Shown piece by piece: positions 18,814 to 21,376 of a stretch of 39,947 nt of DNA (positions within the stretch are counted from its first letter, which is position 1; the number at the start of each line of letters is the position of its first letter). Location: assembly GCA_031272205.1 (NCBI GenBank), contig JAISUH010000061.1, positions 1-39,947 of the forward strand, in the 5' to 3' direction. This DNA is from Dysgonamonadaceae bacterium. Lineage in GTDB: Bacteria > Bacteroidota > Bacteroidia > Bacteroidales > Dysgonomonadaceae. The position numbers were made by a program, and so were the translations under genes. Below the pieces are notes generated by a model. The model was not told where the DNA came from and ran no database searches. It worked only from the letters and a program-made list of their open reading frames with translations.

Positions 18814-18838
18814 GTTTGTGTCAAAAAATGACACAAAC
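18814..18838. terminator. Inverted repeat after the epimerase gene, possible 3' hairpin
   Basis: Perfect 10-bp arms (GTTTGTGTCA and its complement) around a five-A loop, 59 nt past the epimerase stop. There is no T run immediately after, so it is at best a 3'-end hairpin or a protein-binding palindrome. Confidence 0.35.
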
Positions 18839-19117: not shown

Positions 19118-19149
19118 CTAAAAACTAAAAACTAAAAACTAAAAACTAA
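19118..19149 (+). repeat. Heptamer tandem array CTAAAAA x4.5 before the small gene
   Basis: Four exact copies of CTAAAAA at 19118, 19125, 19132 and 19139, plus a partial copy from 19146. The array ends 10 nt before the ATG at 19160, so it would lie in the leader. Copy-number changes would alter leader length by 7 nt each. Confidence 0.9.
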
Positions 19150-19159
19150 CAGTAAAACT

Positions 19160-19339
19160 ATGTACAGAAAAACCATCCAAAAAGAAAAAAAGCGACCTTA
19201 CGCAGTGCCAGTCCTTGAAGTAACTGATGTCGGTATTGAATCCTTCTTAGCATCCTCGCTCAATATGAGATCAACGCCCCAAATAGCGGATCCGGAAGAA
19301 GGAGGAGTGGTGGACGACGATGTAATCTTCGGACTGTAA
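19160..19339 (+). CDS. Small 59-residue protein upstream of the FISUMP/fimbrillin-like lipoprotein
   Basis: An ATG-to-TAA frame of 59 residues starting MYRKTIQKEKKRPYAVPVLE. The layout is a basic N-terminus, a YxxP element, a hydrophobic stretch VTDVGIESFLASSLNM, and an acidic C-terminus (DPEEGGVVDDDVIFGL). There is no signal peptide or membrane helix. Small proteins with a Y-x-x-P element, an ExxL-A-S segment and an acidic tail commonly precede fimbrillin-like or FISUMP genes in Bacteroidales; I recall the pattern but know no assigned function. It ends 42 nt before the lipoprotein ATG, and both starts are preceded by the same kind of heptamer array, which suggests a functional pair. Evidence for translation is codon use, context and the C-terminal coding pattern. 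Confidence 0.65.
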   Translation: MYRKTIQKEKKRPYAVPVLEVTDVGIESFLASSLNMRSTPQIADPEEGGVVDDDVIFGL

Positions 19340-19344
19340 CAAAA

Positions 19345-19379
19345 CTAAAAACTAAGAACTAAAAACTTAAAACTTAAAA
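19345..19379 (+). repeat. Degenerate heptamer tandem array before the FISUMP lipoprotein
   Basis: Five units in strict 7-nt register at 19345, 19352, 19359, 19366 and 19373: CTAAAAA, CTAAGAA, CTAAAAA, CTTAAAA, CTTAAAA. It fills the gap between the small gene and the ATG at 19382. It matches the unit of the array at 19118, so the same repeat precedes both genes. Confidence 0.85.
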
Positions 19380-19381
19380 TT

Positions 19382-21322
19382 ATGGCTTTTACATTTCCAA
19401 AAATTGAGAAATACGGCCGATCGTTGGCCTGTTGTTTAGTCGGCGCATTGATTTATGGTTTAACCTCTTGTACGGATGAAATAAACCGGGCGTTGTCGGG
19501 TACCGGCACGCTTACCTTTATCGTGGGAGGTATAGCCGAAGGTGGCGCCGAAACATTGACCCGCGCCCAAATAGAGCCTCAAGCGGTAAGACAGGATTTG
19601 GGCGACGGCCTCTCTTTGATTTATACCCTGTCGATTGTCCCACAGACAACCACTCGTGCCAACGCTTCAGATATGGATGAAGGAAAGAAATACCGCGTTA
19701 TTGTTTACAAAGCATCCGACAACAGCTATGTTACCCAAAAGGAGTTCACTGTTGGAGAGTCGGACAATACCATTACCGGACTGTCAAACGAGCCATACAA
19801 ATTGGTAGCCATTTCCTACAACACTACCGCTGTTCTCGCAGACATAGGCTCGACGGCGACCACTATCACCGTCGATCCATCGAATGACCTGTTACATTGG
19901 GTGGGCAGTGTGGATTTGACTTCCGGATCGCCATCTTCTCCCATCAGCATCCTTTTTAAACATCGCTTTACAGAGTTGACGGTACAGGCTGACGCCTCGC
20001 TTACGGGTAACCCCATCATCAAATTGCCGGCCACCGCCACGCTGACCCCCGTTTACAAGGGCGTGCTGACGCTTCTCTCCGATGCGACTGTGGCTATGGC
20101 TACGACCGGCGGAGCTTCGGCTCAGAATTTCGACTTGCCGACCTCGCCATCAACACAACCCCCGGCGAGCAATACCCGTTTTGTTTTTACGGGTAATACC
20201 AACCCAGTGAAGCTGCAATTCAACGGGGATGTGGTGGTTTACGCTCCTTCGGGCAACAGGACGCTTACAAGTCCCAAGGCATCATTCGCTACAGTGCTGC
20301 TGGGCGGCTACTCTTACACGCTCAATATGCGCATAGAGGCCAGCAAGGGCGATTATTACCCCTACAGCGATAAAGTCGGCCATGATTACGAAGCCGTGAT
20401 TCCTATCGAGGCGGGATATAATGCCACTAACAGCCTGACCTTTTTAACCTACAACCTTGGCGCCGACCCTGAACTATCGCCCAAGGAGCAGATGGCCTAC
20501 CCGCATACCGACGACAAAAACATCCGTGTATATGGCGGCTTCTACCAGTGGGGACGCAAGGACGTGATACATTCCCTTCGCGACAATTATGATGATGCTC
20601 AAAATTTCTTTACGAAAACTCTATATTTAAGCACAAACTATAATCCATCCAACGATACTAAATTTGTACATGATATACAGACAGCGAACGATGACTGGGT
20701 GAGCGACCATTATGACAGTTCGAATATGTGGGGTAACGGCGGTGGGCCTGCAAACCAAGAGAATTTTTCCTACAACAGCGGAATGCCATATACAGTTGCC
20801 AATCAAAACGATCCATGTCCTAATGGTTATCGCGTACCCACCCAGCTCGAATGGTCTTTGATTGTGGGCGGAGAGTCTTTTATTGATAGCAAGCCGTATG
20901 AAAATCCGAATAAGATCTATTGGGTTCCTGTTTCGGATGGGAAGATGGTTGTTAACTGGTCGCTGGGAAAGATGAACGGCTTTGCTTTATATGCGAGTTC
21001 GGTGTGGAATGTTGCTGATGCAGGTTACAAAGACGGGACCAAGTCTCTTACCGAAGAGGCTGCTCCAATTCCTTTGATGTTTCTGCCTGCGGCCGGTTCT
21101 CGGCTCTCCGGCACGAATGCTGAGCTTCAAAATGTTGGCTATTACGGTTACTATTGGAGCAGTACGGTTGGAGATACTAATATTGTTGATGATTGTGGTC
21201 AATCGCATGCTGTATTTTTTGGCTATGATGTCGGGTTTCAGCCTAAGCGAGTGCTGTTTCGTACGACAGAATGCAATACCCGCACTATTGGGGAGTCGGT
21301 ACGTTGTGTGAAAGCGAATTAG
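19382..21322 (+). CDS. Fimbrillin-like lipoprotein with C-terminal FISUMP domain
   Basis: 646 residues. The signal ends at a lipobox Cys30 (GLTSCTDE). The N-terminal ~360 residues are Thr/Ser-rich beta structure resembling Mfa-like fimbrillins, including repeated TRA segments (LTRAQIEPQ, TTRANAS) and KYRVIVYKASDNSYV. The C-terminal ~280 residues are a FISUMP-type domain (Fibrobacter succinogenes major paralogous domain), starting near LTFLTYNLGADPELSP. Its hallmarks are VYGGFYQWGRKD, DPCPNGYRVPTQLEW near residue 480 and the terminal ESVRCVKAN. It is probably exported to the outer surface as a fimbrial or adhesin-like component. Base composition changes from G+C-rich to A+T-rich within the FISUMP part (near 20590). 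The role is inferred; the exact ligand is unknown. Confidence 0.8.
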   Translation: MAFTFPKIEKYGRSLACCLVGALIYGLTSCTDEINRALSGTGTLTFIVGGIAEGGAETLTRAQIEPQAVRQDLGDGLSLIYTLSIVPQTTTRANASDMDEGKKYRVIVYKASDNSYVTQKEFTVGESDNTITGLSNEPYKLVAISYNTTAVLADIGSTATTITVDPSNDLLHWVGSVDLTSGSPSSPISILFKHRFTELTVQADASLTGNPIIKLPATATLTPVYKGVLTLLSDATVAMATTGGASAQNFDLPTSPSTQPPASNTRFVFTGNTNPVKLQFNGDVVVYAPSGNRTLTSPKASFATVLLGGYSYTLNMRIEASKGDYYPYSDKVGHDYEAVIPIEAGYNATNSLTFLTYNLGADPELSPKEQMAYPHTDDKNIRVYGGFYQWGRKDVIHSLRDNYDDAQNFFTKTLYLSTNYNPSNDTKFVHDIQTANDDWVSDHYDSSNMWGNGGGPANQENFSYNSGMPYTVANQNDPCPNGYRVPTQLEWSLIVGGESFIDSKPYENPNKIYWVPVSDGKMVVNWSLGKMNGFALYASSVWNVADAGYKDGTKSLTEEAAPIPLMFLPAAGSRLSGTNAELQNVGYYGYYWSSTVGDTNIVDDCGQSHAVFFGYDVGFQPKRVLFRTTECNTRTIGESVRCVKAN

Positions 21323-21376
21323 ATCACACAAGAGGCTGTCTCAAAAGTAGAAAATAAAACAGTGCAAAAAAAGCGT

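Follow-up and report, generated by a model that had tools for sequence, protein, structure and literature searches.

The two heptamer arrays that precede successive start codons in the window, by which is meant the whole analysed stretch of 39,947 nt from a Dysgonamonadaceae bacterium, are on balance best read as slippage-born heptanucleotide repeats that lie in untranslated, A-rich leaders within a surface lipoprotein operon of two genes and that would affect translation by degrees at most. TRF assigned a period of 7 to both arrays, with 4.6 copies of the unit CTAAAAA and 100% matches in array 1, and 5.6 copies and 90% matches in array 2, which occupies the intercistronic gap. An initial annotation, made by reading the DNA alone, had placed the arrays immediately before the two ATGs, and TRF together with measurement of the gaps reproduced both distances (Table 1). 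The extent given there for array 1 was likewise recovered, but the second array begins at 19341 by TRF, and not at 19345.

Table 1. Coordinates of the arrays, the two genes and upstream features in the window.
Feature	Coordinates	Strand	Remarks
Perfect palindrome TGTGTCA-N5-TGACACA	18817..18835	.	~340 nt 5′ of the small ORF
Upstream block common to the window and cassette C46	18945..18985	+	88% identity over 41 nt
Heptamer array 1, (CTAAAAA)4.6	19118..19149	+	ends 10 nt 5′ of the small-ORF ATG (19160)
Small acidic protein, 59 aa, first cassette gene	19160..19339	+	without Pfam or NCBIfam family
Heptamer array 2, imperfect (CTAAAAA, CTAAGAA and CTTAAAA variants)	19341..19379	+	ends 2 nt 5′ of the lipoprotein ATG (19382)
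Lipoprotein, 646 aa, lipobox ..LTSC	19382..21322	+	C-terminal Fib_succ_major (FISUMP) match, below cut-off

Array periodicity was quantified with a simple period-7 (lag-7) score on 70-nt leaders, for which a threshold of ≥11 was chosen after the data had been seen. The two window leaders score 25 and 24.5 against a best shuffle of 16, and none of 20,000 dinucleotide-preserving shuffles per leader reached the score of either array. Within the assembly, the exact 21-mer (CTAAAAA)3 is present only at the window locus, and its looser relatives number 78 matches, compared with 3 for a reversed control. Each array contains stop codons in every reading frame, so the arrays lie in untranslated leader, and a 7-nt unit can slip there without frame cost, as the annotation had maintained. 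For the same reason, a frame-based switch is excluded, and phase variation by frame-shifting was ruled out as an explanation. Array 2 is probably transcribed, as it sits between two same-strand genes, and array 1 is presumed to be. No known RNA families were found in the window.

The small protein and the FISUMP lipoprotein together form a cassette that is present in up to 12 paralogous copies in the genome. By sequence search, six paralogs of the small protein were retrieved from its own genome and none from 60 relatives. A profile of the family found nine members in its own genome, where the window protein has six close paralogs and two remote ones, and two in the sister species. Members of this family share a conserved Y-x-x-P, and their acidic C-termini mostly have GL as the last two residues. 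For the lipoprotein, the Fib_succ_major match scores 31 bits, against a Pfam cut-off of 33.9, and a profile of the N-terminus found 12 copies in the same genome, five in the sister species and four in one further species. The predicted lipoprotein structure was unusable (mean pLDDT 34).

With at most one mismatch, the palindrome TGTGTCA-N5-TGACACA has only two sites in the assembly, in the window and at C19:18482-18500, each of them upstream of a cassette. Half-sites lie upstream of most other cassettes, and TTGCG-type palindromes also occur upstream of other cassettes. Judging by this distribution, the palindrome is a possible shared operator of the cassettes; it might also form an RNA hairpin.

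The initial annotation had suggested a search for the same arrays before other FISUMP genes. Period-7 arrays do lie in the same place in several paralogous cassettes, but some of them consist of other units and some cassettes have no array. A score of ≥11 was reached by 7/21 cassette leaders of the same genome, as opposed to 3/232 background leaders (Fisher p ~1e-6), where the background starts are naive ORF calls and the genome statistics come from sampled stretches. After removal of the window's own two leaders, 5/19 cassette leaders remained (p = 7e-5). These p-values overstate independence because the paralogs are related by descent, and when the enrichment was collapsed to about 3 independent events, p = 0.005 was obtained. 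Arrays are borne by the leaders of both genes in C10 (the window cassette) and C24, of the small gene in C46, and of the lipoprotein gene in C49 and C22. The units are CTAAAAA/CTAAGAA in C10, C24 and C46, whereas the intercistronic arrays of C49, C24 and C22 consist of TAGAAGT/TAGAAAT. Clear arrays were not found in cassettes C97, C19, C30, C4, C67 and C59, and periods 5 and 6 gave no comparable signal. In the sister species, 1/5 cassettes has an intercistronic array.

These paralogs would also be the setting for a proposal in which the repeated heptamers are recombination substrates that enable the exchange or duplication of lipoprotein cassettes. The sister species has no cassette at the syntenic site, although the neighbours HU-SPOR and GH3 are kept there (76% and 87% aa); this speaks for the proposal and also makes a same-locus comparison between the two species impossible. 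One sister-species cassette is flanked by CTAAAAA arrays, the lipoprotein leaders of C4 and C30 are identical, and gene rearrangement has been proposed for heptamers in Bacteroidetes (PMC4679880). However, arrays of 32–39 nt are short for homologous recombination, and the units differ between paralogs; such a role is highly improbable.

Heptamer arrays are not confined to cassettes. In an unbiased 295-kb sample of the same genome, 7 was the commonest period among short arrays, and in an array-enriched sample, five heptamer arrays lay near starts, 31 elsewhere and one in coding sequence. Most are intergenic, far from starts and found in both orientations. Exact CTAAAAA arrays occur in 8/393 genomes of the order and a reversed control is about equally sporadic, which ruled out an order-wide, conserved CTAAAAA signal. 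Relatives also have such arrays before peptidase, transketolase and other ordinary genes, and some of their arrays are in reverse orientation. When the orthologous peptidase leader was compared across seven genera, an array was found in one species only. From the dominance of period 7, the arrays away from starts, the sporadic exact arrays and the arrays at ordinary genes in relatives, it follows that heptamer expansion is a general mutational habit, with the leader as one of the sites at which such expansion arises or persists.

The same observations bear on the neutral alternative, in which the genus is generally prone to gaining extra 7-nt units wherever DNA is non-coding and A+T-rich, as leaders simply are, and the copy number is without effect. 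It is favoured by the prevalence of period 7, by the intergenic position of most arrays in either orientation, and by the differing units between genomes together with the equally sporadic reversed control. Against it, arrays are far commoner in cassette leaders than in other leaders, and their A/G-rich strand is in the mRNA sense. Neutral expansion is a possible explanation, but not the preferred one. Because most of the genome's heptamer arrays lie apart from starts, the position of the window arrays beside start codons may be incidental. The idea of a dedicated tuner of surface proteins is weakened, because arrays precede housekeeping genes in relatives and most arrays lie far from starts.

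A dispersed element of the form CCCCGAAGA-[ACTAWRA]n-ACTACCC occurs in 14 copies with n = 1–9 and fixed flanks (C4:13000-32900 and other contigs of the same genome). These elements are intergenic, lie in both orientations and are often followed by runs of the heptamers ATTCTCA or CTTCTAA. They resemble the window arrays in their same or near-same heptamer units and in their variable copy number, but their fixed flanks are absent from the window arrays, and membership of the window arrays in this element was ruled out for want of those flanks. Just 3′ of the lipoprotein gene, at 21330-21355, lies GAGGCTGTCTCAAAAGTAGAAA, the reverse complement of a flank of the dispersed element. In the sister species, ~32 heptamers with a higher-order pattern are found at contig ends (L083:11438-11664 and L084, at the ends of C39 and C53). 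These contig-end arrays lie 90 nt downstream of a lipoprotein cassette, and the assembly seems to break inside the array.

Length variation of the arrays was compared with one genome per species, so that the differences described are those between paralogs and between congeners. The C10 and C46 leaders can be aligned with little gapping across some 240 nt, a leader/promoter region that includes the shared upstream block (Table 1), and once more from shortly before the start codon into coding sequence. Between these aligned parts, the array regions differ in length by 43 nt. Another genus has species whose transketolases are 94–95% identical but whose transketolase leaders carry three CTAAAAA units in one species and a single unit in its congener. 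Given the C10/C46 difference in array length and the one versus three transketolase units, the array is, in these alignments, the most length-variable part of the leader and the part that mutates. Turnover of arrays is correspondingly supported on an evolutionary scale, as far as paralogs, congeners and the dispersed element indicate. A contig search for near-identical strains gave remote relatives only, and none was found among viral contigs.

The leaders themselves have the features expected of initiation regions that do without Shine–Dalgarno pairing. The initial annotation had suggested that the A-rich repeat may be the ribosome-loading site in a phylum without such pairing, and background leaders in the genome are indeed A-enriched at −3, −6 and −11 to −14, with a Shine–Dalgarno-like motif in 3% of them. 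The lipoprotein leader has A at −3, −6, −12 and −13 (all four), and the small-ORF leader has A at −3, −6 and −12 and T at −13. Both array leaders rank within the top 3% for A content; leader 1 is predicted to be fully unstructured and leader 2 to have a weak fold. Baez et al. (2019, PMC6847099) reported that A at −3, −6, −12 and −13 is associated with increased translation in Flavobacterium johnsoniae, and bS1 may bind the upstream A residues of the leader in Bacteroidota (PMC6847099). The window leaders are like the A-rich, Kozak-like initiation regions of Bacteroidota (PMC6847099) in that they have A at −3, −6 and about −12/−13, little structure and no Shine–Dalgarno sequence. Those regions need not be repetitive, whereas the A-richness of the window leaders is that of tandem heptamers.

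Under the preferred reading of slippage-born leader repeats, the arrays would have begun when an A-rich heptamer already present in the ribosome-loading region was duplicated. In Bacteroidota this region, with A residues at −3, −6 and about −11 to −14, takes the place of Shine–Dalgarno pairing and is possibly bound by bS1. Extra copies would lengthen the unstructured, A-rich loading site, and arrays may for this reason be tolerated or mildly favoured. A change in copy number would then raise or lower the translation of both cassette genes by degrees, with no ON/OFF switch. In a more elaborate version, which is rather unlikely, the whole surface lipoprotein cassette family of this gut-type Bacteroidales genome would be tuned paralog by paralog via interchangeable heptamer units at the ribosome-loading site, with slippage setting a heritable, graded level for each paralog.

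If a leader can gain or lose A-rich 7-nt units by slippage, this would be a simple natural means of adjusting the amount of a surface protein. The paralogous cassettes and the one- and three-unit transketolase leaders offer a ready series for relating copy number to translation. If copy number were without effect on translation, the case would show that the heptamer habit of a genome can by itself mimic regulation.

Repeats of this kind have already been described in other bacteria. MacGregor (2015, PMC4679880) described direct repeats of the heptamer TAACTGA before start codons in Beggiatoaceae, Cyanobacteria and five Bacteroidetes, and proposed binding by S1, Csp or Csr. In the Bacteroidetes cases, several heptamers are mixed and are perhaps tied to gene rearrangement (PMC4679880). 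The window arrays share with them tandem 7-nt units on the sense strand, a position mostly a few nt before starts, and the lack of a Shine–Dalgarno sequence, but their unit is CTAAAAA and its variants. In addition, the TAACTGA repeats are mostly start-proximal, whereas most arrays in the present genome are not, and those that are start-proximal are concentrated in a single lipoprotein cassette family. Because unit and genome-wide placement differ, the window arrays are like the TAACTGA set in form but are not members of it.

Heptamers also precede surface-protein genes in Haemophilus influenzae. According to PMC2651432 (citing Dawid 1999), 13–38 copies lie about 70–106 nt upstream of hmw1A and hmw2A, in the promoter region, and are reported there to affect expression. 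The likeness lies in non-coding 7-nt repeats upstream of surface-protein genes, for which tuning is expected over frame switching. The hmw repeats are longer and belong to the promoter region, and the window arrays, with 4.6 and 5.6 copies and the second imperfect, have no pure tract of 13 or more copies. By analogy with hmw, the copy number of array 1, array 2 or both might change often within a population and tune the lipoprotein, as a dedicated bet-hedging switch. The surface-lipoprotein target, the exact repeats of array 1 and the heptamer precedent at hmw1A/hmw2A agree with such a switch; 4.6 copies and an imperfect second array, set against the 13–38 pure copies at hmw, and the arrays before housekeeping genes in relatives argue that it is quite unlikely. 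The closest published case to the window arrays is that of the TAACTGA repeats, and the functional precedent is that of the hmw heptamers.
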